From Clostridiaceae bacterium (lineage in GTDB: Bacteria > Bacillota > Clostridia > DSM-8532), in NCBI GenBank assembly GCA_012839205.1, contig DUNT01000019.1, positions 1 through 64,000 of the forward strand: a stretch of 64,000 nt of DNA. The letters are read 5' to 3'. The first letter of the stretch is position 1. Every line of letters begins with the position of its first letter. This document shows, one piece after another, positions 22,428-63,900 of the stretch. Below the pieces are notes generated by a model, which worked only from the letters and a program-made list of their open reading frames with translations, ran no database searches and was not told the origin of the DNA. The position numbers and the translations under genes were made by a program.

Positions 22428-24068
22428 ATGAAAGACAATAGAAAGAGGTACATAGTCTGTATTATTGCAGGAGCTATTTTACTGTTAATAACAGTGACTG
22501 CGGCTATGCCTAAAAAAAGTATTAATAAGATTGTTTCCATGGAAGCAGGCCGAGAATTTCCCGATGCCAGCATTTTTTTCAGGAAATATGTTGATGATGC
22601 TGAGTATGTCACAGATACACACAGTATTAATCTGAATGAACCGGGGATACATGATGTGGAGGTAAAGTCCGGAAAGAAAACATATCGTGTAAAACTGGAA
22701 ATCAAAGATACTATTGCACCAGTTGCCGAAGTCGGGATTGTAGACATCTATGAGCGCCGAACCGTTGAACCTCACGAATTTATAAAAAGTATTAAGGATG
22801 CCACAGACGTCAGCGTAACATATAAGACTGAGCCTGACTTTAACAGGACAGGCAGTCAGGAAGTATTCCTGATTCTTGAGGATACTTCGGGCAACAAATC
22901 TGAATACCAGTCAATACTGAGAATATCCAAGGTAAAGAGAATTGCTGAAGTGGATATATCTGTAGGCAAGTTAGATGCCAGTATATTTTTAAAAAATAAA
23001 AGAGATATCAACGAGGCGGAAATTGTAGATACTTTATTTCCTGATACAGTAGGATTGTTCCCTGTAAAGATAAAAATTGGAGATACTATATATGAATCAT
23101 CGGTTAACATGGTAGACAGAATTGCACCTGTGGGCAAAGCTATAGACAGAGAATTCTGGACTGTTGATGAAATTTCGGCTATGGATTTTGTTGAAGCGAT
23201 TACTGATGCAACAGCTGTGACGGCGAGGTTTGCCAAAGAACCCGATTTTACACAGGTGGGGGATCAAAAGGTTAGCATCATACTGAGAGACCAGGGGGGA
23301 AACGAAACCATATTGGAAGCAGTTCTTACCCTGGAGGCCGATACCGAACCTCCGAAAATATATGGAGTGCAGGATACCACAGTTTATCTTAATACTCCGA
23401 TTGCTTATAAAAAAGGAGTTTATGTGACAGATAACAGGGATAAAGAAATTGAGGTCTCTGTGGACAGCAGCAGGGTTAATATAAAGAAAGAAGGCTCATA
23501 TATAGTTATATACAGTGCTACAGATGCTTCCGGTAACAGTACCCGCAGGGAAGTTACTTTTAATGTAATAGAAAAACCTGCTGACACTATCGATCGTGCG
23601 GTGGTTGAAGAGCTTGCCGAGGAAATCTTATCAAAGATTATTACTGAAGATATGACTTTGAAAGAAAAAGCACTGGCAATTTATAAATATGTCAATAAGA
23701 ATGTATATTATTTAGGCGGAAGGCATAGTGACGACCTGATTACCGAAGCGTACTACGCATTAATGAAAGATCCGGGAGATTGCTACACTTATTTTGCCGC
23801 ATCTGATTTATTGCTTAATATGGTTGGGATTCCCAATATCCGAGTCGAAAGACTCAGGTATGAGGGAGAGACCAACCACTACTGGCATATGATTAATTGC
23901 GGTGATGGCTGGTACCATTTTGATGCCTGTATACATTTACCTGAATTCTTTTCTTTCATGTTAACTGATGCCGAGGCTGAGGCTTATTCCAGACAAAAAG
24001 GGAAAAATGCATATTACTATAGGCATGATAAAACAAAATACCCTGCAACCCCCGATGATATACAATAA
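22428..24068 (+). CDS. membrane-anchored transglutaminase-like protein, paralogue 1
   Basis: Predicted extracytoplasmic protein of 546 aa. An N-terminal transmembrane/signal anchor (YIVCIIAGAILLLITVTAA) is followed by three or four Ig-like modules of ~75-90 residues (recurring DT..P and SGNKSEYQ/SGNSTRREV endings, DUF5011-like) up to residue ~385. A C-terminal transglutaminase core has the Cys in GDCYTYF (~451), His in NHYWHM (~483) and Asp in HFDAC (~500). The ATG at 22428 has a GGGGGG run upstream. The catalytic triad is intact, so crosslinking or peptidase activity is possible. The next gene is a close paralogue. Function in wall or surface-polymer handling is inferred. Confidence 0.8.
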   Translation: MKDNRKRYIVCIIAGAILLLITVTAAMPKKSINKIVSMEAGREFPDASIFFRKYVDDAEYVTDTHSINLNEPGIHDVEVKSGKKTYRVKLEIKDTIAPVAEVGIVDIYERRTVEPHEFIKSIKDATDVSVTYKTEPDFNRTGSQEVFLILEDTSGNKSEYQSILRISKVKRIAEVDISVGKLDASIFLKNKRDINEAEIVDTLFPDTVGLFPVKIKIGDTIYESSVNMVDRIAPVGKAIDREFWTVDEISAMDFVEAITDATAVTARFAKEPDFTQVGDQKVSIILRDQGGNETILEAVLTLEADTEPPKIYGVQDTTVYLNTPIAYKKGVYVTDNRDKEIEVSVDSSRVNIKKEGSYIVIYSATDASGNSTRREVTFNVIEKPADTIDRAVVEELAEEILSKIITEDMTLKEKALAIYKYVNKNVYYLGGRHSDDLITEAYYALMKDPGDCYTYFAASDLLLNMVGIPNIRVERLRYEGETNHYWHMINCGDGWYHFDACIHLPEFFSFMLTDAEAEAYSRQKGKNAYYYRHDKTKYPATPDDIQ

Positions 24069-24199
24069 GGAAATTATTCCAGATTGTGCAGGTACTTTGT
24101 TTTGCATTATATTTGTGTTAAAATGTAATACGATTTATTAGCTAAAAGTACCTTTATCAGACTAAACATGTTGCTGCATATATATGGAGGATGACTCAC

Positions 24200-25867
24200 A
24201 TGCGTTTGCGAAAGAACAAAAAAATTTACAGGTTTTATATAATTGTCTGCGTGCTGATTACTCTGCTTTTATTACTTTTAGCCAATGCTTTCAAGTACAG
24301 TGATGTTAATAAAAAAGTTGTTATAGAAGCAGGGTCAGAACTACCACAGGCAAATGTATTTATAAAAGACCAAACCAGGCAAGCCGAATATATTTCAGAT
24401 ATAACAAAAATAGAGGCAAATAAACCTGGAACCTATGATGTAAGAATAGAATCCAACGGGAAAAAGTATAAGGTTAAACTGGAGATTAGGGATACTTTAG
24501 CTCCTGAAGCTGAAATTAAGAATATCGACTTATACGAAGGCCGTATTATTGAGCCGCAGGAATTCATAAAGGGCATAAATGATGCTACCAATGTTGCTGT
24601 GACTTATAAAAATACTCCTGACTTTTATAAAACAGGAATTCAGGATGTGTTTTTGTTGCTTGAAGACGAAGCAGGAAATAAATCTGAATACCAGGCCAGT
24701 TTAAGGGTTTCCAAAACAAAAGAAAATATTAGGGTGGATATTGGTAACCGTCAGTATAAAGTTGAGGATTTTTTGAAGGAAAAGAACGATCTTGAGAGAG
24801 CAAGCATTATAGAACCCTTAAGTGTTCCGGAAAAGATGGGTACCTATCCTGCAAAAATTAAAATTGATGATGTTATATATGACTCAAATATTGTAGTTAC
24901 AGACTTGACTCCTCCGAAAGGAGAAGCTGTTGAACAGCAAATATGGCAAAACGATGTGATTGAAGCCTCACAATTGGTTACCAATATTAAGGATTTAACG
25001 AGTGTAACAGTCAGATTCAAGGAACAGCCGGACTTTTCACTTGTAGGTGAGCAAACGGTCAAACTGATATTGGAAGATGAGGCAAACAATCAAACCGAAT
25101 TGGAGGCAAAGCTGACTGTAATACAGGATACTGAGCCACCGGAAATTTACGGTGTTAAAGACAATACCATATATTTAAATACCCCTGTTTCATTCAAAAA
25201 AGGTGTATATGTATATGATAACAGGGATGGAGAAATCCAGGTTCAGGTTGACAGCTCCAATGTTAATCAAAAGAAGACAGGAGAATACAAGGTAATATAT
25301 ACTGCAACTGATTCATCAGGCAATACTTCCAGTAAGGAAGCCATATACACTGTAAAGGAAATGAGAGTAACAATGGAACAGCTTGAGGAACTTGCCGATG
25401 AGATATTAGCCAGAATAACTACCCCGGATATGACCTTAAGAGAAAAAGCCTGGGAAATCTATCAGTATGTGAATAAGCATCTTACTTATACAGGATATTC
25501 TGATAAAACTGATTGGATGTTTGAGGCTTATAACGGAATAACGAATGCTGTGGGAGACTGCTTTACCTACTTTGCCATGTCAGAACTTTTGCTTAACAGG
25601 ATTGGTATGGAGACTATGAGGGTAGAAAGACTTTCAAAGCCGGGAGAGGCAAAACATTACTGGCATTTGGTGGATTTCGGTGAGGGCTGGTATCACTTTG
25701 ATGCATGTATACACATACCCAAGCTGGTTTCCTTTATGTTGACCGATGCGGAGATGGATGCTTTCTCAGCAAGGGTAGGGAAAGACAACTATTACTATAG
25801 ATTTGATAAGTCCAATTATCCAAGGACTCCGGAGAAATACAACTATCCAAGGCCTCTGCCGGAATAA
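24200..25867 (+). CDS. membrane-anchored transglutaminase-like protein, paralogue 2
   Basis: Tandem paralogue of the preceding gene (555 aa): same order of signal anchor (residues ~10-32), repeated Ig-like modules and C-terminal transglutaminase core with GDCFTYF, KHYWHL and HFDAC. The two share long identical blocks around the core (for example YHFDACIH and SFMLTDAE) but differ in most Ig positions, so the duplication is not recent. The ATG at 24200 is chosen because GGAGG at 24186-24190 abuts the other ATG at 24191. It has its own promoter-like boxes (TTGCAT / TGTAAT) in the 131-bp gap. Placed just before the racemase/Dlt-like cluster. Confidence 0.8.
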   Translation: MRLRKNKKIYRFYIIVCVLITLLLLLLANAFKYSDVNKKVVIEAGSELPQANVFIKDQTRQAEYISDITKIEANKPGTYDVRIESNGKKYKVKLEIRDTLAPEAEIKNIDLYEGRIIEPQEFIKGINDATNVAVTYKNTPDFYKTGIQDVFLLLEDEAGNKSEYQASLRVSKTKENIRVDIGNRQYKVEDFLKEKNDLERASIIEPLSVPEKMGTYPAKIKIDDVIYDSNIVVTDLTPPKGEAVEQQIWQNDVIEASQLVTNIKDLTSVTVRFKEQPDFSLVGEQTVKLILEDEANNQTELEAKLTVIQDTEPPEIYGVKDNTIYLNTPVSFKKGVYVYDNRDGEIQVQVDSSNVNQKKTGEYKVIYTATDSSGNTSSKEAIYTVKEMRVTMEQLEELADEILARITTPDMTLREKAWEIYQYVNKHLTYTGYSDKTDWMFEAYNGITNAVGDCFTYFAMSELLLNRIGMETMRVERLSKPGEAKHYWHLVDFGEGWYHFDACIHIPKLVSFMLTDAEMDAFSARVGKDNYYYRFDKSNYPRTPEKYNYPRPLPE

Positions 25868-25940: not shown

Positions 25941-25961
25941 GCTCAGTAAGGGGGAATACTT

Positions 25962-26678
25962 ACGAAAGAATTAGGTGTAATTGGCGGTCTTGGCCCTATG
26001 GCCACTGCTTATTTTCTGGAATTGGTAGTTAAAATGACGGAAGCAAAGAACGATAGGGAACATGTGCCGATGATTATTTTTAATCATCCTGCCATTCCGG
26101 ACCGTACAGACTATATTCTGGGGAAAAGCCAGGAAAGCCCGCTGGATGCTATAGTTTCCATAGGAAAGACCTTAGTTGAGCTTGGCGTTGAGAATATTTC
26201 AATACCCTGTATAACCGCCCATTATTTTTATGATGATATATTAGCCCAAATTGGCATTCCGGTTATAAATATGCTGGAGGAAACCGCTAACTATCTTAAA
26301 GCTAATAATATTGATGAAGTTGGTATTATGGCAACAGATGGAACCATTAAAGCAGGATTCTTCACCGACGAGCTTGAAAAACATGGGTTAAAGGTTTATA
26401 CTCCCGGCGAAAATAGCCAGAAGAAAGTCATGAGCATTATTTATGATGATATAAAAGCTAATAAGCCATATGACATTGATGGGTTTAAACAAGTTGAGCG
26501 TGAATTGAGGGAAGCAGGGGCACAGGTTATAATACTGGGGTGTACTGAGCTTTCGTTAATTAAGAAGGATGGACATGCAGGTTTCGGGTTTTTAGATACA
26601 ATGGAGGTGCTAGCCGTTAAATCAATTGAATTGTCAGGGGCCTCTTTAAAAGCAGAATATAAAAATTTGCTTGTATAG
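25962..26678 (+). CDS. aspartate/glutamate racemase family protein, apparent ACG start
   Basis: Cofactor-independent amino acid racemase of ~239 aa with both catalytic cysteines: C83 in IPCITAH and C194 in ILGCTELS. The family's N-terminal strand and loop, KELGVIGGLGPMAT, is encoded upstream of the first ATG (25998). The only in-frame codons between the stop at 25947-25949 and this motif are GGG GGA ATA CTT ACG. AAGGGGG at 25948-25954 is 7 nt from ACG, so ACG (25962) is the likely start; a mutated ATG or a base-call error is the alternative. It probably supplies a D-amino acid (Asp or Glu by family) to the adenylation enzyme encoded 29 nt downstream. Confidence 0.8.
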   Translation, partial: TKELGVIGGLGPMATAYFLELVVKMTEAKNDREHVPMIIFNHPAIPDRTDYILGKSQESPLDAIVSIGKTLVELGVENISIPCITAHYFYDDILAQIGIPVINMLEETANYLKANNIDEVGIMATDGTIKAGFFTDELEKHGLKVYTPGENSQKKVMSIIYDDIKANKPYDIDGFKQVERELREAGAQVIILGCTELSLIKKDGHAGFGFLDTMEVLAVKSIELSGASLKAEYKNLLV

Positions 26679-26707
26679 CTTGAACTTGCATAGAAGGGTG
26701 TTAGTTG

Positions 26708-28225
26708 ATGGATAGACAGAACAATATTCTTGAATACTTAGATAATATAGTAAATATCTGTCCCGATAAAATTGCATATGCAAATGAAACTGATGAATTA
26801 TCATTTAAGACAGTCTATGATAATTCCAGGGCGATAGGGACTTTTTTGCATAATGAAGGCAGATACAAAGAGCCTGTGGTGGTTTTTATGCGGAAACACC
26901 CGGACACTATTGTTACTTTTCTTGGTGTTGTATATGGGGGCTGTTACTATGTACCCATAGACAACGAGATGCCGAGACACCGTATAGAACTGATATTTCA
27001 GAATCTAAATCCCAAAGCGGTTATATGTGATGATTCAACTATAGATTCAATTAAAGACTTTGATTATAAAGGAGCAGTGTACCACTATAACGAAATAGTA
27101 AAGACAACTGTTAATCAGGCTGCATTGGACGAAATCAGGGATAAAGCTCTTGACACTGACCCTATTTACATTGTATTTACATCAGGCTCTACAGGCAAGC
27201 CCAAAGGTGTAGTTGCATGCCACCGGTCAGTAATAGATTATATAGAAACTCTGTCTGAAGTCTTAGAAATATCTGAGGATACGGTATTCGGTAATCAGAC
27301 CCCGTTATATGTTGACGCCTGCTTAAAAGAAATATACCCGACATTAAAATTCGGTGCAAAGACTTATATAATACCAAAGGAACTTTTTATGTTCCCCATT
27401 AAGCTGGTAGAATTCCTTAATAAATATAAGATCAATACGGTTTGCTGGGTGGTACCGGCCTTGACCCTTATTTCAGGCTTAGGTGCGCTGGAAAAGGTAG
27501 TTCCTCAGCACCTGCATACAATAGCGTTTGGAAGTGAAGTGTTCCCCATAAAGCAGTTTAATATGTGGAGAAAGGCCCTGCCCAACGCCAGATTTATTAA
27601 TCTGTACGGGCCAACCGAAGCCACCGGAATGTCATGCTATTATATCGTTGACAGGGAATTTGCACTTGATGAAGCAATCCCTATAGGAAAGCCGTTTAAA
27701 AACACAGAGATTTTACTTTTGACCGATGAGAATAAACTTGCCCCAAAAGGTGAGCAGGGGGAGATTTGCATAAGAGGAACCTCTCTTACCCTGGGCTATT
27801 ACAACGATTTTGATAGAACAAATGAGGTATTTGTGCAGAACCCGTTAAATACTATGTACCCTGAACTTATCTACAGGACGGGAGATATAGGAAAGCTCAA
27901 TGAAAGGGGCGAGCTGGTATTTGTATCCAGAAAAGATTACCAGATTAAGCATATGGGGCATCGTATAGAACTGGGCGAAATTGAAATGGTTATGAATCAA
28001 ATGGATGGCATCCAAAGTGTGGTATGTATTTTTGATAATGACAAAAAGAAGATTATTATGTATTATGTTGGTGATGTAACAAAAGCAGATGCTGTAAATT
28101 ATTGCAGGGACAAGCTGCCCAGATACATGGTTCCAAATCTTGTTGAGAAGCTTGATATTATGCCGCTTACATCAAACGGAAAGATAAACAGACTGGCATT
28201 AAAAGAAAAGTATGCCAATCGATAG
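26708..28225 (+). CDS. amino acid adenylation enzyme, DltA-like
   Basis: Stand-alone adenylation enzyme of 505 aa that should activate an amino acid with ATP and load it on the carrier protein encoded 8 nt downstream. Core motifs: VFTSGSTGKPKGV (~155), NLYGPTEATG, YRTGDIGKL, QIKHMGHRIELGEIE and the catalytic Lys in SNGKINRLALKEKY. The Asp in LYVDACLKEIYP is the residue that usually binds the substrate amino group, so an amino acid substrate is likely. By eye, the Cys that DltA uses for D-Ala selection is not conserved (CWVVPALTLISGL), so D-Ala cannot be assumed. ATG 26708 is preferred to the overlapping TTG at 26705. Confidence 0.85.
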   Translation: MDRQNNILEYLDNIVNICPDKIAYANETDELSFKTVYDNSRAIGTFLHNEGRYKEPVVVFMRKHPDTIVTFLGVVYGGCYYVPIDNEMPRHRIELIFQNLNPKAVICDDSTIDSIKDFDYKGAVYHYNEIVKTTVNQAALDEIRDKALDTDPIYIVFTSGSTGKPKGVVACHRSVIDYIETLSEVLEISEDTVFGNQTPLYVDACLKEIYPTLKFGAKTYIIPKELFMFPIKLVEFLNKYKINTVCWVVPALTLISGLGALEKVVPQHLHTIAFGSEVFPIKQFNMWRKALPNARFINLYGPTEATGMSCYYIVDREFALDEAIPIGKPFKNTEILLLTDENKLAPKGEQGEICIRGTSLTLGYYNDFDRTNEVFVQNPLNTMYPELIYRTGDIGKLNERGELVFVSRKDYQIKHMGHRIELGEIEMVMNQMDGIQSVVCIFDNDKKKIIMYYVGDVTKADAVNYCRDKLPRYMVPNLVEKLDIMPLTSNGKINRLALKEKYANR

Positions 28226-28233
28226 GAGGAAAT

Positions 28234-28464
28234 ATGAAAGCATTACTGGAAATACTGGAGGAATTACACCCGGAAATTGATTTTGAAACTCATAAAAGTT
28301 TAATTGATGATAAAATACTGGACTCCTTCGATATCATTACAATTATTGCGGAAGTTAATGATGAATATGATGTGGCTATTCCGGCTCATGAAATTACGCC
28401 GGAGAATTTTAACTCTGCATCAGCACTTTACGAACTGATAGAAAGGCTGATGGACGAGGATTAA
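28234..28464 (+). CDS. acyl/aminoacyl carrier protein, DltC-like
   Basis: Acidic 76-aa carrier protein. The phosphopantetheine attachment serine is S31 in ILDSFDIITII, followed by the typical VAIPAHEITPENFNS loop and third helix. It has AGGAGG 5-6 nt upstream and sits between the adenylation and MBOAT genes, so it is the partner that carries the activated amino acid. Size matches DltC (~78 aa). No dedicated phosphopantetheinyl transferase is in the window. Confidence 0.88.
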   Translation: MKALLEILEELHPEIDFETHKSLIDDKILDSFDIITIIAEVNDEYDVAIPAHEITPENFNSASALYELIERLMDED

Positions 28465-28476
28465 TCAGGGGGAGCT

Positions 28477-30066
28477 ATGTTATTTACTTCATATGGGTTT
28501 ATACTATTTCTGTGTGTAGTAATTGGACTATACTATATAATACCTAAGCGATTCCAATGGCAGCTTCTGCTGATATCGAGTTTCGTTTTTTACTATTTTT
28601 CAGGCTGGAGTAATTTAATCTATATTTTAGTTACTATTGTATCCACCTATTTTATAGGGATGAAACTTGGCAACCTTAATAAGCAGCAGAATTTGTACCT
28701 GAAAGAAAATAAAGAGACTTTATCCAGAGAGGAAAAAAAGGCATATAAAGAGAGAATAAAAGCTAAGCGCTGGAGATGGCTTTTGTTCTGCCTTTTTTTC
28801 AACTTGGGAATTTTAGCGGTAATCAAGTACACAAATTTTGCCATAGCTAATATTAACAATATATTCACATTATTTAAGATGAATGAACTTTCCTTTGTGA
28901 ATCTTATCCAGCCAATGGGTATATCGTTTTATACATTCAAGACTATGGGATATATCATTGATGTTTACAGAGTTAAGTATGAGCCGGAGAGGAATATAGG
29001 TAAACTGGCTCTGTTTGTTTCATTCTTCCCTCAGTTAATACAGGGTCCTATAAGCCGTTTTGACGATTTAAGCCTGTCACTTTTTAAGGAGCATGATTTT
29101 AATGCTAAAAGTTTTTCATTCGGATTTCAGAGAGTGCTCTGGGGATATTTTAAAAAGCTTGTTATAGCCGACAGAATAGTTGTGGCTGTGCTGGAGATTA
29201 CAAGGAATCCCGAAACCTATGACGGAATATTCGTTCTGGTGGGTATGGTCTTTTATGCTATACAGCTTTATGCTGACTTTACCGGAGGTATTGATATTAC
29301 CATCGGTATTGCTCAGATGCTGGGAATTGAGGTTAAAGAAAACTTTAACCGGCCGTATTTCTCCAAGTCCATCGTGGAATATTGGAGAAGATGGCATATT
29401 ACTATGGGAACATGGTTCAGGGATTACATATTCTATCCCCTGTCTGTCTGTAAACCCATGCTGAATATATCAAAATCCTCCAGAAAACGCTTTGGAGAAC
29501 AAATAGGAAAGAAAGTACCTGTATATCTGTCAACAATGACAGTATGGTTTACAACGGGTTTATGGCACGGCGCCAGCTGGAATTTTGTTGTCTGGGGTTT
29601 GCTAAACGGATTTGTGATTTTAGTTTCCCAGGAATTTGAACCCTTGTACGCAAAATTTCATCAAAGGTTTAATGTAAGGGATACCTTTGGATTCAGGTTA
29701 TTTCAGGTTATACGAACTTTTCTTCTTATGTCCTCATTAAGAATTCTGGACTGCTACCGGGATGTAGGTATATCCTTCAGGATGTTTGGCTCAATGTTTA
29801 CCAAATTCAACATTAATGAGATGCTTACAGGCTCTTTGCTTAAATTGGGTCTGGATATTTCTGATTATATTGTACTTTTAATTGGAGTTATTGTGCTAAT
29901 ATCAATCAGTCTTATACAAAGGAGCGGAAGTGTCAGGGAAAAAATATCGGGCAAGCCGGCAATAATAAGGTATACCGTTTATGTATTGTTATTGTTCTCA
30001 ATAGTTATTTTTGGAGCTTATGGAATAGGCTTCGACAGCAATCAGTTTATCTATAATCAGTTTTAG
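28477..30066 (+). CDS. MBOAT family membrane O-acyltransferase (DltB/AlgI-like), system 1
   Basis: Polytopic membrane protein of 529 aa with ~10-12 hydrophobic helices. It has the MBOAT hallmarks: PMGISFYTFKTMGYIIDVYR, QLIQGPISRF, and the catalytic His near residue 364 in TTGLWHGASWNFVVWG, preceded by EYWRRWHITMGTWFRDYIFYPL. It is longer than DltB (~400 aa) and nearer in size to AlgI. In this operon it probably takes the aminoacyl group from the carrier protein and passes it across the membrane to a surface polymer. It starts 12 nt after the carrier protein gene (GGGGGAG site). Confidence 0.88.
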   Translation: MLFTSYGFILFLCVVIGLYYIIPKRFQWQLLLISSFVFYYFSGWSNLIYILVTIVSTYFIGMKLGNLNKQQNLYLKENKETLSREEKKAYKERIKAKRWRWLLFCLFFNLGILAVIKYTNFAIANINNIFTLFKMNELSFVNLIQPMGISFYTFKTMGYIIDVYRVKYEPERNIGKLALFVSFFPQLIQGPISRFDDLSLSLFKEHDFNAKSFSFGFQRVLWGYFKKLVIADRIVVAVLEITRNPETYDGIFVLVGMVFYAIQLYADFTGGIDITIGIAQMLGIEVKENFNRPYFSKSIVEYWRRWHITMGTWFRDYIFYPLSVCKPMLNISKSSRKRFGEQIGKKVPVYLSTMTVWFTTGLWHGASWNFVVWGLLNGFVILVSQEFEPLYAKFHQRFNVRDTFGFRLFQVIRTFLLMSSLRILDCYRDVGISFRMFGSMFTKFNINEMLTGSLLKLGLDISDYIVLLIGVIVLISISLIQRSGSVREKISGKPAIIRYTVYVLLLFSIVIFGAYGIGFDSNQFIYNQF

Positions 30067-30090
30067 CATTAAGGAGAATTAATAGAACCA

Positions 30091-31179
30091 ATGAGAAAGA
30101 AGAAGATAATATCCTTTGTAATTTTAATATTGGTGATTGTTACTCTGGCTTTGCTCCTCCAAAAGCTTCTGATGCCCAAATATATGACAAAGATAGTGGA
30201 AGGAGCCCTGATAGCCGAGTATTATGATGAAAAGAATAAAAACCATGATGTTATATTTATCGGAGACTGTGAGGTTTATGAGAATCTTTCTCCCATAACT
30301 CTTTGGGAGGAATATGGTATCACAAGCTATATCCGGGGCAGCGCTCAACAGCTGATTTGGCATTCCTATTATATATTGGAGGATACTCTAAAGTATGAAA
30401 AGCCGGATGTTGTTGTATTTAGTGTGCTTTCAATGATGTATGATACACCCCAGAAGGAAGCATATAACCGTATGTCTATTGACGGGTTACCTTTATCATT
30501 GACTAAAATGAAATTGGCCAAGGCATCTATGCTTCCCGAAGAGGATTTAATTACATATATTTTCCCTTTGCTCAGATTCCATTCAAGATGGAATGAGCTT
30601 TCTGAAGAGGATTTTAAGTACTGGTTCAAAAAAGACCAAATTGCCCATAACGGATATCTTATGAGAGTCGATGTCAAACCAGCAAGCTCTTTCCCCAAAC
30701 CAAGAAAACTTGCAGATTACAAATTCGGGGATATTTGCTATGAATATCTGGACAAGATTGTTAAGCTATGTAAAGATAACGATATAGAGCTGGTTCTGCT
30801 GAAGGCTCCCAGTCTTTACCCGCATTGGTATGAAGAATGGGATTCCCAGATAGTTGACTATGCTGAAAAGAATGGTTTATTATATATAAATATGCTTAAT
30901 CATTTAGATGAGATAGGCCTGGACTTTAATACCGATACTTATGATGCAGGGCTGCATTTGAATCTTTCAGGTGCTGAAAAATCATCAGTTTTTCTGGGGA
31001 GAATTCTTCAGACAGAGTTTAATCTTTCCGATAAGCGCCAGGATAAATATTTAAAGGCCGTTTGGAAGGAAAAAGCCGATGCATATTATGAAATGGAAGC
31101 GGATCAATACAGGGAACTTGAAGAATACGGTTATTTACTAAAATTCAACATGAAGAGGTCAGAAGAGAATAACCAGTAA
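30091..31179 (+). CDS. SGNH-like membrane-anchored protein, DltD/AlgJ-type, Cys at nucleophile position
   Basis: Predicted extracytoplasmic protein of 362 aa with one N-terminal transmembrane anchor (IISFVILILVIVTLALLL). The block DVIFIGDCEVYENLSP resembles the GDS/GSS nucleophile motif of SGNH acyltransferases, but the expected Ser is C60. Near residue 285, DAGLHLNLSGAEK matches the C-terminal D-x-x-H block. DltD, AlgJ and PatB-type proteins act with MBOAT partners on surface polymers, and this gene follows one by 24 nt. Whether Cys is the nucleophile or the activity is lost is unknown. It ends the five-gene run; a repeat block follows. Confidence 0.75.
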   Translation: MRKKKIISFVILILVIVTLALLLQKLLMPKYMTKIVEGALIAEYYDEKNKNHDVIFIGDCEVYENLSPITLWEEYGITSYIRGSAQQLIWHSYYILEDTLKYEKPDVVVFSVLSMMYDTPQKEAYNRMSIDGLPLSLTKMKLAKASMLPEEDLITYIFPLLRFHSRWNELSEEDFKYWFKKDQIAHNGYLMRVDVKPASSFPKPRKLADYKFGDICYEYLDKIVKLCKDNDIELVLLKAPSLYPHWYEEWDSQIVDYAEKNGLLYINMLNHLDEIGLDFNTDTYDAGLHLNLSGAEKSSVFLGRILQTEFNLSDKRQDKYLKAVWKEKADAYYEMEADQYRELEEYGYLLKFNMKRSEENNQ

Positions 31180-31453: not shown

Positions 31454-32014
31454 ATGAAAATAAAGATATTCGTACTAATAATGGTAGTTATGATACTTTT
31501 TGCAGGTTGTGGTTCGGGTTCAGAAAATGTTAATCCATCACCATCACCTACCACATCTGCTGCAGCGAATCCCGACAACAATGAAACTAAGCCTGCAACA
31601 GAGGAGAAATCTAAATATTATTTTGAATATAACGGTACGGCTATTTACATGAATGATGTTGCAAAGCCTGTATTGGATGTTTGGGAAGAGCCTATGCACT
31701 ATTTTGAATCTCCCAGCTGCGCTTTTCAGGGAATTGACCGTGTATATACTTATAATGGCTTTGAATTATATACCTATACAGATGGAGATGATGAAACCGA
31801 ATATATATTTTCCGTGGTGTTCATGAACGACAGTGTTGAAACCAATGAGGGTATAACCATTGGTAGTAAACTGGAAGATGTAATTTCCAAGTATGGGGAT
31901 GATTTTACCCAGGAAGGAAAGAAATATACTTATACAGACTCCAACACCACTCTGTCCTTTGTACTTGAAAATGATGAAGTAGTTGAAGTATCATATAATC
32001 TCATCCTGAATTAA
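31454..32014 (+). CDS. putative lipoprotein, unknown function
   Basis: Lipoprotein of 186 aa. The signal peptide MKIKIFVLIMVVMILFAGC has a lipobox with Cys19, followed by a Pro/Ser/Thr/Asn-rich spacer (~20-50) and a compact alpha/beta domain (~55-186) with TYNGFELYTYTD and TIGSKLEDVISKYG. The latter resembles the 'small change in conformation' repeats of SmpA/BLIP-like lipoproteins, but I cannot name the family. AAAAAGGAG precedes the ATG. It is downstream of a repeat block, so probably not part of the Dlt-like operon. Confidence 0.7.
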   Translation: MKIKIFVLIMVVMILFAGCGSGSENVNPSPSPTTSAAANPDNNETKPATEEKSKYYFEYNGTAIYMNDVAKPVLDVWEEPMHYFESPSCAFQGIDRVYTYNGFELYTYTDGDDETEYIFSVVFMNDSVETNEGITIGSKLEDVISKYGDDFTQEGKKYTYTDSNTTLSFVLENDEVVEVSYNLILN

Positions 32015-33985: not shown

Positions 33986-35488
33986 ATGGCAGGACAGTAT
34001 GGAAATGAGCCGATGATGGAGATGTTTCTGTTTGAAACCTCACAGTTACTTGAGCAGCTGGAACAATTAATACTTACATGTGAGAAATCCAATTGTTACA
34101 CCGAAGACACAGTAAATGAAATATTTCGTATTATGCACACCATAAAAGGTTCTTCAGCTATGATGATGCAAGACAGCATTTCAACCATTTCCCATTCCAT
34201 GGAAGATTTGTTCTATTTTTTGCGTGAAAGCAAACCACAAAAAATTGATAATTCTGCTTTATCAGATTTGGTTTTGGAAGGGGTAGACTTAATAAAGATT
34301 GAAGTGGAGAAACTTAAAAACGGAGATAAAGCAGATGGAAATACTTCGGAGTTGCAGGGCAGAATAAAGAGTTTGTTATCTGATTTTCAAATGAGTAATT
34401 CATCTTCAAATACTGTAAAAGACAGGAAACTCCTGGTTAACAAAGAGCAACAGTATTATCTGAGTCAGGATAAAACAAGAATTAATACAGCTAAATATAA
34501 GAATGCCTTCAAAGCGACTATACACTTTGAAGAAGGCTGTGAAATGGAAAATATTCGCGCATATGAAATTGTACATAATATCCGTGATATCACAGATGAG
34601 TTTTTTCATATTCCTGAAAGAATTATTGAAGATGACAGCTGCGCAGAAATAATCAGACAGGAAGGATTCAAATTATTTTTAAGAACAGATTCTTCTTACG
34701 AAGAATTGCATGAGTTTTTTATGGAAACTCTGTTTCTCAAGGATTTAGAGCTGGTTCAGATAGAAATTGATGACTATTACCGGTTATATGATGAAAAGCA
34801 GGAAATAACAAGTAAGAATATATCTGTTTCCAACAGGAGTTCAGGGGAAGAGTCTGAAGAAATCAGGGAAACCCACTCTGTCTCATCTCAACAAAATATC
34901 ATTAGTGTCAATATGACTAAGCTGGATAAACTTATGGATTTGGTCGGTGAAATGGTTATTGCGGAGGATATGGTTATTCAGAATCCGGACTTAAAAGGGA
35001 TGGAGCTGGAAAACTTTCAAAAGGCGTCGCGACAACTACAGAAAATTACCGGAGAAATCTAGGATATAGTTATGTCTATCAGAATGGTTCCTCTCTCTGC
35101 AACATTTCTTAAAATGCATCGTATAGTCCGGGATATGTGTAAGAGACTGGGCAAAGAGGTGGAGCTTAAAATTATTGGTGAAGAAACTGAAGTAGACAAA
35201 AATGTAATTGAACACATCTCAGACCCGATTATGCATCTTGTAAGAAATGCTTTGGATCATGGTATTGAATCTCCTGAAGAAAGAAGAGCTAAAAACAAAC
35301 CAGAGATTGGAACTATTACCCTTGAAGCAAAAAATGCAGGCAGTGATGTTCTTGTTATTATAAAAGACGATGGCAAGGGATTGAATAAAGAGAGAATTCT
35401 TCAGAAGGCAAGAAAAAACGGTTTGCTCTTTAAAAATGAGGAAGAAATGTCCGAAAAAGAAATCTATAATTTGATATTCCTTCCGGGC
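33986..35488 (+). pseudogene. cheA: cheA pseudogene: amber codon and loss of the 3' part
   Basis: Remains of a chemotaxis histidine kinase. The Hpt domain is complete, with H51 in RIMHTIKGSS; P2-like and dimerisation regions follow. At 35060-35062 a TAG interrupts the otherwise unbroken frame in ITGEI*DIVMSIRMVP, where CheA proteins have Gln, so a single CAG-to-TAG change explains it. Beyond it the ATPase domain continues (HLVRNALDHGIESPEER, IIKDDGKGLN) until IFLPG, where homology stops at ~35488. The rest of the ATPase and the CheW-like P5 domain are missing. A re-start at ATG 35072 would give 151 aa without ATP-lid or P5. Confidence 0.88.
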
Positions 35489-35490
35489 TT

Positions 35491-35685
35491 AAGAACAAGT
35501 TCCATGTTATTTTTTGCAGAAACGTAATGATTTATTTTGATGCACAAACCAAAAAGAAACTGATTGATAAGTTTTATGATTTGTTGGAATATGGGGGGTA
35601 TCTGTTTATAGGACATTCAGAATCTATCAGCCGTAGTGAGACAAGGTACAAGTACATCAAACCTGCTGTATACAGAAAAGAGTAG
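35491..35685 (+). pseudogene. cheR: cheR pseudogene: 3' remnant
   Basis: About 64 codons in a different frame from cheA, starting abruptly at the cheA break: KNKFHVIFCRNVMIYFD, then KKLIDKFYDLLEYGGYLFIGHSES and a TAG at 35683-35685. This is the C-terminal end of the CheR glutamate methyltransferase, including the RNVxIYF and GHSES landmarks. The N-terminal ~200 residues and any genes between cheA and cheR are gone. No start codon or ribosome binding site serves it. It shows that a deletion joined the two genes. Confidence 0.88.
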
Positions 35686-50138: not shown

Positions 50139-50485
50139 AAAAAAAGCTTCGCCTCTTTACTATGAAAGAGACAAAACTTTATAGTTCTGCGGTACCACCC
50201 TTTATTGCTGTAAATACACAGCCCCTCCGTGCATAATAGTAAGACTAATATGCAGATTTTCTAACGGTAATCAACCGGTCAGACCTAATAAACAATTCTT
50301 ACAAGTAACCAACTACTAATCATAGTATTATAAAGGCTATTATGTACAATTTCAGAATTGGCTTTCAGCCTGAAAGCTCCGGGGTGAGTATTCACACAAT
50401 ACAAACCTTATCTCTCAGCAAATGATAAGTTCTCTGTAGCTCTTCTTGTGCTGTTTTCCCCTTCATTGCTAATTTCTATATTTTT
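50139..50485 (-). promoter_or_regulatory. T-box riboswitch, specifier probably CUC (Leu), controlling liv operon
   Basis: On the minus strand the T-box sequence AAAGGGTGGTACCGCAG lies at 50203-50187; its TGGT bulge pairs with an ACCA acceptor end (discriminator A, as in tRNA-Leu). The terminator stem is 50177-50165 / 50158-50146 (13 bp with G-U pairs) followed by seven U. Stem I begins near AGAAGAGCTACAGAGAA and carries GTGTGAATACTCACCCCGGAG; CUC at 50388-50386 followed by A fits the specifier pattern. UAC (Tyr), overlapping two bases earlier, is the alternative but fits the gene less well. Uncharged tRNA would favour the antiterminator and transporter expression. Confidence 0.93.
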
Positions 50486-50690: not shown

Positions 50691-50929
50691 CATTTTATAA
50701 TAAATTAAGATGTAATATATACAATATATTATGATATTAGGATAAGTATAAACTTTAAGTATGCAAGCTGAATCACAAATTAAGGTGACAAGTCTTTTTT
50801 TACCGAAACAAAGTGATATAATAAAAGTTAAAGAGAATGCAGCTGTAATACTAATTTATAGCTAGGGTTCATGGAGCGTTAAACTTAGTGTGGACCTTTC
50901 TTAATATGGAGACTCGAGGGGGCATTTTT

Positions 50930-52345
50930 TTGGTTTTTTCCAGCTTGTTTTTTTTATGCATTTTTCTTCCGATTTGTTTGGGCTTATATTATATCAATAA
51001 GAACAGGACCTATAGAAATTGGCTTCTTATAATAACATCTCTTATTTTCTATGCGTGGGGAGAGCCAGTTTGGATTTCAATTCTTTTATTGTCAACCGGG
51101 TTCAGCTACTTTAGTGCACTTCTTGCCGAAAAGTACAGAGGAAACGTTAAAGGGAAGATAGCTCTTATAGCTTCAATTGCTGGTAATCTTCTGATTCTTG
51201 GTTTTTTCAAATATTCCGGATTTCTGATTGACAATATAAATGGCTTGATAGGAACAAGCATTAAGGTGCCGGAGGTCGGTCTGCCCATAGGGATTTCTTT
51301 TTATACCTTCAAGATTATTTCTTATATAGTGGATGTATATAAAGGAGAAACAGAAGCACAAAAATCACCGTTTAAACTGCTTCTCTATGTTTCTTTGTTC
51401 CACCAGCTGATGGCAGGGCCTATTACGCGCTATAAGGATATTTCCGAAGCTATTGACAACAGGGTGGAAACATATCAGGATTTCAATTACGGTGTCAGCC
51501 GTTTCATAATAGGACTTGGCAAAAAGGTGATTCTTGCGGGTACAGCAGGTAAAATCACAGATATATTCATGGGTACCGATTATACAAGGCTTCCTTTGCT
51601 GGGTGCCTGGTTCGGTATACTGATGTTTGCTCTTCAATTATATTTTGATTTTTCAGGCTATTCAGATATGGCCTTAGGGCTTGGCAGCATGTTCGGGTTT
51701 AAGTATAAGGAGAATTTTGATTATCCTTATATTTCGAAATCAGCAGGTGAGTTCTGGCGAAGGTGGCATATTTCATTAGGCAGCTTTTTTAGAGATTATG
51801 TATATATACCACTGGGGGGAAACAGAAAGTTTAGAATAAGAAATCTGTTTATTGTCTGGGGACTCACGGGTTTGTGGCATGGTGCAGACTGGAATTTTAT
51901 CATTTGGGGTCTGTATTATTTTGTGCTTCTGGTGATAGAAAAAGCGTTTTTACTTAAGCTTTTTGAAAAACTTCCTGCAATAATATCAAGATTATATCTA
52001 TGGGTTGCGGTGCTTGTTGGATGGGTGTTCTTCTATCACAACGACATAGGACAGGCGTTCAGATTCTTAGGGATTATGTTTGGACCCGGTGCCAATGGAA
52101 TATCCAGCCCTGAACTGAGTATACATTTTTGGAATAATGCTGTGTTTCTGATTATTGCGCTTATAGGCTGCACACCTGTTTTCAGCAGGATCTTCAAGAG
52201 GCTAAAAGAAGAAGGATCCAAAGGAAAACTTATTTGGTTTATTGAAACATATGGTAAGCCGGCTTTCAATATAGCAGTACTGGTACTGTCGGTTATTTTC
52301 CTGGTGGGACAATCCTTCAGCCCATTTATGTATTTTAAGTTTTAG
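50930..52345 (+). CDS. MBOAT family membrane O-acyltransferase (AlgI-like), system 2
   Basis: 471-aa polytopic acyltransferase. From the TTG at 50930 (GAGGGGG 8 nt upstream) it begins VFSSLFFLCIFLPICLGLYY, the usual AlgI-type N-terminus; an upstream GTG at 50888 would add 14 unrelated residues. Hallmarks: LPIGISFYTFKIISYIVDVYKGE, HQLMAGPITRYKDI, EFWRRWHISLGSFFRDYVYIPLGGN and the catalytic His in LTGLWHGADWNFIIWG. It probably acylates (typically acetylates) an extracellular polysaccharide together with the DHHW protein encoded 78 nt downstream. Confidence 0.92.
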   Translation: MVFSSLFFLCIFLPICLGLYYINKNRTYRNWLLIITSLIFYAWGEPVWISILLLSTGFSYFSALLAEKYRGNVKGKIALIASIAGNLLILGFFKYSGFLIDNINGLIGTSIKVPEVGLPIGISFYTFKIISYIVDVYKGETEAQKSPFKLLLYVSLFHQLMAGPITRYKDISEAIDNRVETYQDFNYGVSRFIIGLGKKVILAGTAGKITDIFMGTDYTRLPLLGAWFGILMFALQLYFDFSGYSDMALGLGSMFGFKYKENFDYPYISKSAGEFWRRWHISLGSFFRDYVYIPLGGNRKFRIRNLFIVWGLTGLWHGADWNFIIWGLYYFVLLVIEKAFLLKLFEKLPAIISRLYLWVAVLVGWVFFYHNDIGQAFRFLGIMFGPGANGISSPELSIHFWNNAVFLIIALIGCTPVFSRIFKRLKEEGSKGKLIWFIETYGKPAFNIAVLVLSVIFLVGQSFSPFMYFKF

Positions 52346-52422
52346 ACTTTAAAAGAACATGAGTCGTTTATACAGGCAGCTGATTTTAGATACATTCATT
52401 CGGAATATAGGGAGGCATAGTT

Positions 52423-53790
52423 TTGAAGAAACTAAAAATTGATACGATATTTTTCATTATACTTATTACTTTGCTGGGCTTAGTAAATTTAATCAATACC
52501 AATAAGCCAACAGTATCTAATCTTGAGAACAGGGCCCTTAAAACCATGCCTCAGTTTTCGTTGGCCAGTGTAGTCAGAGGCAGCTTTCAGAGGGATTTTG
52601 AGGAATATTACAGCGACACCTTTATTTTCAGAGATAATCTGGTGAAAATAAGCAGGGATGTAAACAAGATTATGGCTTTCCTGGGGCCTGACATCAGTAT
52701 TGTTACATCAGTTGAGGATGTACAATTACCTCCGGTTATACCCGAGGGAGAAAAAGAAACTGTATTCCCGGCGCCGACAGGAAGCAAGGCTAATGAAACC
52801 AACGAAAACTTCTCTCCATCTAATGAGAATACCCAAACGGCAACTCCCACACCCACTCCCGAACCGGAAAAAGACTATGGAGATGACCCTAATGTAGGAT
52901 ATTGGATGGTTGTGGATGGTAAGGCTGTTCAGCTGTTTAAATTCAATAAGGAAAGTATTGAATACTATGCACAAGTCATAAATAAATACAATGAAAAGCT
53001 GGGGGATGGAGTAAAAATATATTCTATGATACCTCCGACAAACGGGGAGTTTATGCAGCTAAAGAAGTACAAGAGCATAACTGATTCTCAAAATGATGCA
53101 CTTGGGTTTTTAAAAACCAAGCTAAATGACAGTATTATATCTGTTGATGTCTATGATGCTTTGAACAAACACAAGGATGAATATATTTACTTCAGGACCG
53201 ATCATCACTGGACAGCGCTTGGTGCCTATTACGGGTATTGCGAATTTATGAGAACCAAAGGAGATACGCCTCTTTCTCTTGATCGATTTGAAAAAATTGA
53301 TTTGGGGGATTTCCTGGGCAGTTCCTACACCAAAACATTGGACAAGAGTCTTGAGAAAAACCCGGATAATATTGTTGCATATAAGCCGTTAACCAACCAC
53401 AAATTCACTATATATAAAGGCAATGAGGGGACTAAAGCCGATATAATCGACCTGAAATATGCTGACGATATCAGTAAAAAATATCTGGTATTCATTAGCT
53501 CAGGCGGGGCAACCTGGAGTAAAGTAAAGACAGATATTAATAACGGCAAAAAAGTCTTGGTTATAAAGGACTCTTTTGGTAACATGCTGGTACCTTTTTT
53601 AGTGCCCCACTATGAGGAGATTTATGTTGTTGACTCAAGATTTTACAATATGAACTTAACGGAAAAGAATATTGTGGAATTTGTAAAAGACAACGGAATC
53701 AATGAAGTGGTATTCTGTATATACATGGAGGATGTAAACTGGCACAAGTTTATGAGCGGTGTTGAGAACATGCTGGGCAGTGAGAATTAA
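52423..53790 (+). CDS. DHHW/AlgX-like extracytoplasmic protein
   Basis: 455-aa protein with an N-terminal membrane anchor (TIFFIILITLLGLVNLI), the ENRALKTMPQFS motif and FIFRDNLVKISR. A Pro/Thr/Glu-rich linker (~125-155, TPTPTPEPEK) precedes the SGNH-like domain, which has FRTDHHWTALGAYYGY (DHHW motif, ~263) and VIKDSFGNMLVPFL near 385 carrying the Ser-like nucleophile block. Such proteins act with AlgI-type MBOATs in O-acetylation of exopolymers. TTG start with GGAGG ~7 nt upstream. Confidence 0.88.
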   Translation: MKKLKIDTIFFIILITLLGLVNLINTNKPTVSNLENRALKTMPQFSLASVVRGSFQRDFEEYYSDTFIFRDNLVKISRDVNKIMAFLGPDISIVTSVEDVQLPPVIPEGEKETVFPAPTGSKANETNENFSPSNENTQTATPTPTPEPEKDYGDDPNVGYWMVVDGKAVQLFKFNKESIEYYAQVINKYNEKLGDGVKIYSMIPPTNGEFMQLKKYKSITDSQNDALGFLKTKLNDSIISVDVYDALNKHKDEYIYFRTDHHWTALGAYYGYCEFMRTKGDTPLSLDRFEKIDLGDFLGSSYTKTLDKSLEKNPDNIVAYKPLTNHKFTIYKGNEGTKADIIDLKYADDISKKYLVFISSGGATWSKVKTDINNGKKVLVIKDSFGNMLVPFLVPHYEEIYVVDSRFYNMNLTEKNIVEFVKDNGINEVVFCIYMEDVNWHKFMSGVENMLGSEN

Positions 53791-57987: not shown

Positions 57988-58014
57988 TACCCTGGTAGAC
58001 CTCTTTTTTTTTGA

Positions 58015-58191
58015 TGGGGTAGAGGCGCAGTATTTAACAGTTTATAGTGGAGTATGAGAAAACGATGATGCTATGAAGAAGGAAATACTGCCGAAGCTGA
58101 TAGTAATCTCATTATTATCGGCTGGGTCTGCAGTGAATAACTGCAGAACTGTCTCAGTAAACTTCCCGGTTTATTGAGATGCACTATCTCA
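58015..58191 (+). promoter_or_regulatory. lysine riboswitch aptamer (L box)
   Basis: P1 is TGGGGTAG (58015-58022) pairing with CTATCTCA (58184-58191). Conserved L-box blocks appear in order: AGAGGCGCAG, AGTATGAG, GAAGGAAATACTGCCGAAGC, GGCTGGGTCTGCAGTGAATA, CTGCAGAACTGTCTCAG and ATTGAGATGCACTATCTCA. An expression platform with an intrinsic terminator follows at 58227. In the known class lysine binding favours termination, so the downstream transporter should be made when lysine is scarce. Confidence 0.92.
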
Positions 58192-58226
58192 TTTGGGAAA
58201 AGCTGAGGAATTAAGGTAAAACTTTA

Positions 58227-60905: not shown

Positions 60906-63900
60906 ATGTCTGATACTATCTATTATCCTTTAACTTCCCCTCAGTTATCAATTTGGTATACCGACCGAATGTATTCTGGAACAAGCATTTCAAACGTCGC
61001 AGGAACTTTAAGAATTAAAGAAAAAGTCGATATTGAAGTTTTAGATAAAGCAATCAATTACTATATCAAGAATAATGACGGTATACGTTTACGGATTTGT
61101 CTTGATGGTGAAGGTAATCCACAGCAATATGTATCAGAATATGTATACAAGAAAATTGAGGTTAAAGACTTTTCAAACTTTGCAGACCCTATAAGGGCTA
61201 TGCAAGAGTGGGACAGACAAGAAACTCTCAGGCCATTTGATTTATTAAACAGTGAATTATTCCGTTTTGTAATTATTAAACTTAATGATTTTGATATAGG
61301 GTTTTATATTATAACACACCATATTATATCTGACGCCTGGAACATGAGCCTTTTAGGCAGTTCTATAGTTGACTGTTATTGCAAAATTAAAAAAAATCCG
61401 GATGATACCAGTCTTAATGATACTATGCCATCATATACTTCGTTTATTGAAGACGAGCAGCTCTATATAAAGTCCAGCAGATATGAGAAGGATAAAAATT
61501 ATTGGGAGGAAACCTTTGGAGCGTACCCTGAGACAACATTTTTAAAGATTAGACAGACCAATGAGTTTTCTGCTAAAACAAAAAGGAAAACATTTATCGC
61601 ACCAAAAAAGTTTACAAATAAGCTCAGGGCTTATTGTCAGGAAAACAAAATAACTCCATACCCATTGTTTATTTCGGCTTTAGCAATGTATATTAACAGA
61701 ATATTGGATAAAGATGATATAATTATAGGGACACCTATTTTAAACAGACTTAACCGCACCTACAAAAATACTGCAGGGATGTTTGTCAGTACGATACCAT
61801 TACGGATTGGCATAAATAATCAGGATTCATTTTTGGATTTATCTCAAGACGTATTAGAAATATGCCTAAAATCATACAGGCATCAAAGATACCCTTACGA
61901 CCATATTCTAAAGCATGTCAGGGAAAAGCATAATATAAAAGAGAATCTATATGATATTGTTCTTTCCTATCAAAATTCAAAGTTTGACAAGTCTTTTGAT
62001 GTCGATTACATAACTAGATGGCATTTTAATGAATACCAGTCCAATTCATTCACGATGCATATTAACGACAGAGACGATGAGGGTGTCTTAATCATAGATT
62101 ATGATTATCATTCTGATTTATATTATGATAAAGAAATTGAATTCATACATCAGCATGTATTGAGTCTGTTATGGCATGCGTTGGATAATCCGAACAATTT
62201 AATCTGTAAAATTGAGATGCTCTCCGAAAATGAGAAAAAGAAAATACTACATGATTTTAATGATACCTATGCAGATTATCCAAGAGAAAAGACCATTCAT
62301 CAATTATTCGAAGAGCAGGTTGAAAAAACGCCTAATAATGTTGCTATTGTCTTTGAAGACAATAGACTTACTTATAAGGAGCTGAATCAAAAAGCAAATT
62401 CTTTAGCTAACGTGTTAAGAAACGAAGGAATAGGACCCGATGATGTTGTTGGAATTATGGCTCCAAGATCGCTTGAGCTGATTATTGGAATATTAGCGAT
62501 ATTAAAAGCGGGTGGTGCTTTTTTACCAATTGAACCTGGATTCCCTGATGAAAGAAAGAAGTATCTATTAAATAACAGCGGTGCAAAACTTTTGATTTCT
62601 ACAAAGGAATTATACTCTTTTGAATATGGGATCGGATTAATAGATATATATGACTGTAATAATTATAGGAAGGAATTATATGAGAATCTGCCACATGTAA
62701 ACATGTCAAGCGATATGGTTTATGTTTTATATACATCGGGTTCCTCAGGTTTACCTAAAGGTGTTATTATCGAACATAAGTCTTTACATAATTTTGTATC
62801 AGGTGTAAAGAAAGTATTGGATTTTAATCCATCATCAGTTGTTTTATCGGTTACTACAGTATGTTTCGATATTTTTGCTTTTGAACTATTTACATCATTA
62901 TTAAGTGGCTCGACTGTAATTATTTCCAATGAAAATGAACAGAACAATCCTAGGGTATTAGGCGAATTAATTCTTAATAATAATGTTTCGACCATACTAA
63001 CAACTCCTTCAAGAATGAAACTGTTTGTTAATGTTGAGGTATTTAAAAAGAGTTTATTAAAGGTAAAACAGATAATGCTAGGTGGTGAAGAGCTTGAATT
63101 AAGTTTTGTAAACAAGTTAAGAAAGCTTACAGATGCCAGAATTATTAATGGTTATGGTCCAACTGAAACAACAATTGGTGTAACCTTTAAAGATGTTACG
63201 AAATCAAACAAAGTAACGATTGGCAAGCCAATAAGTAATACAAAATGTTACATACTGGATAAATATTCGAATCTTGTACCAATAGGCATACAAGGAGAAT
63301 TATGTATTTCAGGAGAATGTTTAGCTAGAGGTTATTTAAATAATAATGAGTTAACAAATAGTGCTTTTGTTTTGAACCCATTTAATGAAAACGAAAGACT
63401 TTATAAGACCGGAGATATGGCTCGTTGGTTTCCAGAAGGTGAAATTGAGTTTTTAGGAAGAAAAGATAAACAAGTAAAACTACGGGGATATAGAATTGAG
63501 TTAGAAGAAATTGAAAATGCAATCTTAAAGTATAAAGGCATCAAAGATGTTGCAGTTGTTCTAAAAAAGAATAGTGATTATGGAGATTTATTGTGTGCAT
63601 ATTGTGTAAGTAACGATACCATTATAATAAAAGATTTGAAATCATTATTAGCTCGTCAATTACCTAGGTATATGGTTCCTAGAATTATAATGGAAGTTGA
63701 AAGCATACCAATTAATTCAAATGGTAAAAGAGATACATCAAGACTGCCGGATATTGATTATTCAAGTTTAGCCAGCGACAGTATTATAAAACCATCAACA
63801 AAAATGGAGAAAAAACTGCTAGATATGTTTCATAAGCTGGTTAAGGGCAGTAGAATTAGTATCGATGACAATATCTTTGAGTATGGTGCTGATTCATTAA

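Follow-up and report, generated by a model that had tools for sequence, protein, structure and literature searches.

What does an operon do that resembles the D-alanylation operon (dlt) and carries a racemase of its own? This question is raised by a locus in the stretch of DNA analysed here, positions 1 to 64,000 of contig DUNT01000019.1 from a Clostridiaceae bacterium (GCA_012839205.1), which we call the window. An earlier note, made from the letters alone, had placed five genes at 25962-31179, in one direction with intergenic gaps of 8-29 nucleotides, and had named their products as a racemase of the Asp/Glu family, a DltA-like adenylation enzyme, a DltC-like carrier protein, a long MBOAT and an SGNH-like anchored protein. 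The open reading frames of the window, together with Pfam and NCBIfam assignments, bore this out, and all five genes are on the plus strand. On balance, we think that these genes probably encode a transmembrane aminoacylation module, in which a D-amino acid made by the racemase (likely D-Asp) would pass over carrier, MBOAT and SGNH protein to a surface acceptor other than teichoic acid.

Extent of the unit and linkage of the racemase

Two samples of relatives were used. The 80 named loci are those nearest to the window adenylation enzyme and come mostly from metagenome-assembled genomes of Clostridiaceae, Lachnospiraceae and Oscillospiraceae, with a few isolates; Hominifimenecus microfluidus (L102) is a cultured organism that carries the module. 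The class sample consists of 291 genomes spread evenly over the class; searching it with an SGNH-protein profile avoids selection by similarity of the adenylation enzyme. Strong matches (at least 476 bits) were found in 35 of the 291 genomes, separated by a clear gap from weaker matches of at most 207 bits, and the neighbourhood could be read in 34 of the 35. A full aminoacyl arm (adenylation enzyme, carrier and MBOAT) was present in 24 neighbourhoods, 16 of them with the racemase gene. Two others had carrier and MBOAT with no adenylation gene between racemase and carrier; in one of these (L186) the adenylation gene lies downstream, after the racemase, and the other genome has an adenylation gene elsewhere. 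Three neighbourhoods contained the MBOAT only, and five had neither, with glycosyltransferases of families GT87 and GT2 instead.

The gene order in relatives from the window's family, in the named loci and in the class sample is transglutaminase, racemase, adenylation enzyme, carrier, MBOAT, SGNH protein, lipoprotein. The unit therefore exceeds five genes: the transglutaminase-like gene at 24191-25867, which adjoins the module in nearly all loci, and the lipoprotein gene at 31454-32014, found 3' of the SGNH gene in most loci, belong to it (both on the plus strand). The arrangement recurs in about 100 genomes, which is far beyond chance, and the module is widespread in gut, rumen and digester Clostridia rather than peculiar to the window. 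No description of this gene combination was found in the open-access literature. A plasmid search returned a single distant match, an Rfam scan gave no match within the operon, and in a scan for promoters and terminators the real sequence did no better than shuffles.

The first gene of the five (25962-26678) encodes a racemase of the Asp/Glu type that is independent of pyridoxal phosphate, probably an aspartate racemase. It scores 221.9 bits with the aspartate racemase family model TIGR00035 (cut-off 93.1), both catalytic cysteines (Cys83 and Cys194) are invariant in 73 homologues, and the closest solved structure is the aspartate racemase 1jfl. Among the named loci the gene lies directly 5' of the adenylation gene in 69 and upstream of the transglutaminase gene in three, which puts it in 72 of the 80 operons. 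Of the eight loci without it, six come from genomes that encode an intact member of the racemase family at another place, and one from a genome in which such a gene is interrupted. In the class sample, 21 of 24 genomes with the aminoacyl arm encode a racemase of this family at some position, as do 49 of 256 genomes that lack the module (Fisher P 2e-11); when the window's family was left out, 12 of 15 aminoacyl-arm genomes had one (P 2e-6), both P values being inflated by the shared ancestry of the genomes. None of the five genomes with the glycosyltransferase arm has it, and these belong to the same genus as two racemase-bearing aminoacyl-arm genomes. The racemase thus follows the aminoacyl arm of the module. 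A tree groups the operon racemases into a single clade with support 0.998, separate from unlinked racemases. The racemases of L128, L159 and L163, the loci in which the gene precedes the transglutaminase gene, fall in the other clade and look like separate recruitments.

The neighbourhood search had been set beforehand as a refuting test of the earlier proposal, which a racemase not conserved with the other four genes would have contradicted; this outcome was not seen. The conserved linkage in the named loci and in the class sample also rules out the racemase as an unrelated neighbour.

Predicted transfer machinery compared with Dlt and PatA/AlgI systems

The module shares with Dlt (DltX-DltA-DltB-DltC-DltD) a stand-alone adenylation enzyme, a carrier, an MBOAT, an SGNH protein and the tyrosine shuttle motif FxYxxF. 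In Dlt, the MBOAT passes D-Ala from the carrier to the Tyr of the FxYxxF tail of DltX, and DltD passes it on to lipoteichoic acid (PMC12148441). The differences are that the window module has its own Asp-type racemase and a different adenylation pocket, that its shuttle is fused to the MBOAT, that its SGNH protein has Cys instead of Ser, that a transglutaminase and a lipoprotein are added to the operon, and that the window genome has no LtaS or TagB/F homologue. A normal D-alanylation operon that happens to include a racemase would carry out the same four reactions, and the adenylation domain, carrier and MBOAT do match the DltA, DltC and DltB models. All three, however, are far under the equivalog cut-offs: 272.9 bits against 559.85 for DltA (TIGR01734, which no protein of the genome passes), 29.6 against 68 for DltC (PRK05087) and 141.6 against 375 for DltB (TIGR04091). 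As the pocket is also unlike that of DltA at most positions, the racemase is not an alanine racemase and the teichoic acid enzymes just named are missing, we regard this explanation as very improbable. There is no separate DltX microprotein either, since gaps of 8-29 nucleotides are too small for one and the motif stands at the C-terminus of the MBOAT. The cluster had been called Dlt-like; judged by its sequences, it appears to work like Dlt and is not Dlt by equivalog scores, DltX or the catalytic Ser of the SGNH partner. In the class sample, DltB over cut-off occurs in 12 of 291 genomes and in none of the 35 module genomes. Mutual exclusion of dlt and the module was considered and dropped, as an overlap of zero has P 0.2 by chance.

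The carrier gene (28234-28464, 76 amino acids, PF00550) resembles dltC and retains the phosphopantetheine site Ser31 (28324-28326) in the motif LDSFD, invariant in 79 homologues. The MBOAT (28477-30066, PF03062) was said in the earlier note to be about 130 residues longer than DltB, and its 529 amino acids, against open frames of 384-410 for DltB, agree with this; the extra length is due to a fused C-terminal acyl shuttle, FxYxxF, of the AlgI/PatA kind. In 75 homologues His307, His364 and, within FIYNQF (30046-30063), F524, the Ile, Y526 and F529 are invariant. PatA-like MBOATs have the FxYxxF tail fused via two extra helices and use acyl-CoA as donor, and MBOAT/SGNH pathways other than Dlt have no carrier protein according to the same authors (PMC12148441), evidently because acyl-CoA is used. 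The module resembles PatA/PatB, AlgI/AlgX or AlgJ and the DHHW-type O-acetyltransferases in its long MBOAT with C-terminal FxYxxF and in its SGNH partner, but differs from them in being fed by an adenylation enzyme and a carrier and in the Cys at the SGNH nucleophile. By its sequence features, the window system is a hybrid, apparently carrier-fed like Dlt and shuttle-fused like PatA/AlgI. A second MBOAT, ending in FMYFKF, is encoded in the window together with a DHHW/AlgX-type SGNH protein at 50888-53790; this pair looks like an ordinary O-acetyltransferase.

The last of the five genes (30091-31179) encodes a membrane-anchored protein of 362 amino acids. It has no Pfam match above threshold and no match to the DltD family, and a profile built on this SGNH-like protein gave no meaningful match among PDB sequences. 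Its AlphaFold model (mean predicted local distance difference test score, pLDDT, 92.8) is matched in Foldseek by GDSL lipases, by DltD (6pfx) and by PatB (7tlv), so the earlier assignment as an SGNH-like anchored protein is supported by a predicted fold near DltD and PatB. At the place of the nucleophilic Ser there is Cys60 (GDC in block I; codon 30268-30270), invariant with Asp285 and His289 in 67 homologues. GDC is also present in 25 of 25 further class-sample loci, while distant SGNH homologues outside the module mostly have Ser; a text search of a review of the SGNH family found no mention of a Cys nucleophile (PMC9487903). With Cys at the nucleophile position, an aminoacyl thioester intermediate is expected. 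The pair had been described as Alg-type: this fits the MBOAT, with its invariant His and C-terminal motif, and the modelled extracytoplasmic SGNH fold of the partner, but not the catalytic residue, where Cys replaces Ser. Four tandem genes for distant SGNH proteins stand beside an MBOAT gene in L179 (G308:C26).

Substrate and acceptor

The stand-alone adenylation enzyme (26708-28225; a TTG at 26705 and the ATG at 26708 are both possible starts) scores 320.1 bits with the amino-acid adenylation model TIGR01733, above its cut-off. It retains Lys517 and Asp235, the residue that binds the alpha-amino group, so its substrate is an amino acid. The pocket code fits DAKWA[G/A]LG[M/I/V]K in all 82 sequences compared, with DAKWAGLGMK in 71 including the window enzyme, DAKWAALGIK in 10 and DAKWAALGVK in one, and Lys239 (codon 27326-27328 in the window) is present in 82/82. 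Together with the Asp-racemase family, this lysine favours an acidic amino acid as the probable substrate, and D-Asp appears the most likely one. A link between loss of the racemase and a changed pocket (G301 to A) was rejected, as variant codes mostly occur with a racemase.

The earlier note had also pointed to the apparent absence of the DltA Cys, a residue linked to D-Ala selection (PMC9338922). The window enzyme indeed has Gly276 at this position, but the observation is weak evidence: DltA proteins of the class that are encoded beside an over-cut-off DltB have Ile or Ala there, and they differ from the window pocket at most positions. We therefore rejected the missing Cys as proof of another substrate.

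Asparagine synthase genes point in the same direction as the racemase. In L193, from a genome without the module, a racemase gene of the operon clade is flanked by genes for an ATP-grasp protein and an asparagine synthase (L193:6407-10261), and the module in L186 (G150) itself includes an asparagine synthase gene (L186:1057-2922). Lactococcus lactis uses RacD to make D-Asp, the ATP-grasp enzyme AslA to ligate it and AsnH to amidate it (PMC4155827). This cross-bridge pathway of lactic acid bacteria resembles the module in having an aspartate racemase in the operon, in the asparagine synthase of some relatives and, if our proposal holds, in putting D-Asp into the envelope; it differs in that its ATP-grasp ligase forms an amide on a cytoplasmic precursor, with no carrier or MBOAT. 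The ATP-grasp protein of L193 may be an AslA by analogy; neither a relative of known structure nor a specific NCBIfam match was found for it.

Several points weigh against D-Asp. The racemase also passes the NCBIfam cut-off for cysteate racemase (203 against 190 bits), and three module genomes of the class sample (G045, G121 and G142) have no racemase of this family. Lys at position 239 is typical of glutamate codes of nonribosomal peptide synthetases and so may indicate a side-chain carboxylate, a reading that comes from comparison of codes and not from a tested enzyme; we know of no pocket code that DAKWAGLGMK matches exactly. Racemases of the Asp/Glu family can be broad. The same machine might accordingly handle D-Glu, D-cysteate, D-Ala or an L-amino acid, the racemase being broad or supplying something else. 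We find this rather doubtful, given the invariant Lys239, the proximity of the racemase to 1jfl and the asparagine synthase neighbours in L186 and L193, which point to Asp.

The window genome, which is 99.68% complete, has no match to PF00884 (sulfatase/LtaS) or PF04464 (TagB/F), models to which control genomes respond. On this indirect evidence a classical teichoic acid is probably not the acceptor; candidates are peptidoglycan, a polysaccharide and a protein of the surface. Of the D-aminoacylation of a surface polymer by D-Asp or D-Glu that had been suggested, an acidic D-amino acid is favoured by the pocket lysine and the racemase family, and the surface acceptor is put forward as a probable destination.

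Proposed route, exchangeable arms and start codon

In the proposed route, the racemase would make the D-amino acid, most likely D-aspartate, which the adenylation enzyme would activate with ATP and load onto the carrier as a thioester. The MBOAT would move the aminoacyl group from the carrier to the outer side of the membrane, onto the tyrosine in its FIYNQF tail; we infer these carrier and tyrosine steps by analogy with the named families. Cys60 of the SGNH protein would then accept the group and hand it to a surface acceptor other than classical teichoic acid, which the transglutaminase-like protein and the lipoprotein may act on or bind.

The transglutaminase-like protein has an N-terminal membrane helix, Ig-like domains (Pfam Transglut_core and Bact_surface_Ig-like) and a triad, Cys457-His489-Asp504, that is invariant or nearly so in 86 homologues. 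A paralogue at 22428-24068 (plus strand) appears to be accessory: it stands beside the module in several close relatives, and only some relatives have it. The lipoprotein has a lipobox and an invariant SCA motif; searches of Pfam and PDB for its family gave only weak matches, and its model (pLDDT 85) resembles DUF4309/YfeY-like folds weakly. A fusion in L051, from another family, links it to the unit: there the SGNH protein carries the lipoprotein as its C-terminal domain.

In five loci (L166, L168, L170, L171 and L172) the transglutaminase, Cys-SGNH protein and lipoprotein are kept and GT87 and GT2 glycosyltransferases, assigned on L166, replace adenylation enzyme, carrier and MBOAT. All five come from one genus, which also holds members with the aminoacyl arm. 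In L165, L167 and L169 the arm is reduced to the MBOAT. The exchange of arms around a retained set suggests that one acceptor is decorated in different ways. It also presents what a simple shuttle model has most trouble explaining: the five genomes have an SGNH protein and no linked MBOAT, only distant MBOATs elsewhere (37-39% identity), and the SGNH role may differ from acyl uptake from an MBOAT. Along these lines, the core task could belong to transglutaminase, Cys-SGNH protein and lipoprotein, which might for instance mature or anchor a protein or polysaccharide of the surface; the aminoacyl arm would then be one of several interchangeable arms that decorate this same acceptor. The retained set with either alternative arm and the fusion in L051 speak for this, while most loci carry the complete aminoacyl arm in the same operon; we hold it to be unlikely as a separate explanation, and it is compatible with transmembrane aminoacylation rather than opposed to it.

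The start of the racemase gene is unusual. Neither ATG nor GTG nor TTG occurs in its frame ahead of the conserved first strand; position 25962 is an ACG codon, and the first ATG, at 25998, lies inside the conserved domain. In 16 genomes of the window's family, in which the flanks have diverged, and in L057, L080 and L082, 19 genomes in all, the ACG (25962-25964) stands at a normal distance from the Shine-Dalgarno sequence AAGGGGGAA (25948-25956) that precedes it. The ACG lies a few bases 3' of GGGGG or GGAGG and aligns with the ATG of the remaining relatives, and is likely the start codon. Because ACG is the rarest Thr codon (6% in the operon, 15% in the clade) and the sequence upstream of the Shine-Dalgarno sequence is not conserved, the codon itself seems to be under selection; no RNA structure was found at the start, only the Shine-Dalgarno sequence and ACG being conserved. 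One relative (L047) has an ATG two codons upstream of the ACG position, very near the Shine-Dalgarno sequence. In E. coli, ACG gave 0.1-1.5% of the expression from ATG (PMC6925171), and a conserved weak start would hold racemase levels low. A conserved ACG start with a strong Shine-Dalgarno sequence is unusual in bacteria.

A more detailed version of our proposal is offered tentatively: an MBOAT that is supplied by a carrier and has the shuttle fused to it, together with a Cys-SGNH protein, would form a D-Asp (or amidated D-Asn) ester on a non-teichoic acceptor, with exchangeable arms around the transglutaminase/Cys-SGNH/lipoprotein core and the racemase held low by ACG in some lineages.

Other features of the window include a cheA-like gene (33986-35527) with an in-frame stop (GEI*DIVMSIRMVPL) and without its C-terminal part, a pseudogene or an assembly error that adjoins cheY- and cheB-like genes. 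A T-box leader (50164-50475, minus strand) precedes a branched-chain-type ABC operon and a lysine riboswitch (58012-58194, plus strand) an amino-acid ABC transporter. An adenylation domain at 62283-63737 belongs to a large frame resembling nonribosomal peptide synthetases (1443 amino acids open) that runs past the window end and is unrelated to the module.

If the proposal is true, the module is an envelope aminoacylation system other than D-alanylation, and one commoner than dlt in the even class sample: of the 291 genomes, 35 encode the Cys-SGNH protein and 24 of these the complete aminoacyl arm, whereas DltB is found in 12. It would unite two mechanisms thought to be separate, a carrier donor and a fused tyrosine shuttle, and it would provide a natural Ser-to-Cys SGNH transferase in which the thioester intermediate could be trapped. 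If the substrate is D-Asp, a zwitterionic and not a cationic group would be added to the cell surface, and the effects on charge, resistance to cationic peptides and sensing by the host should differ from those of D-Ala.

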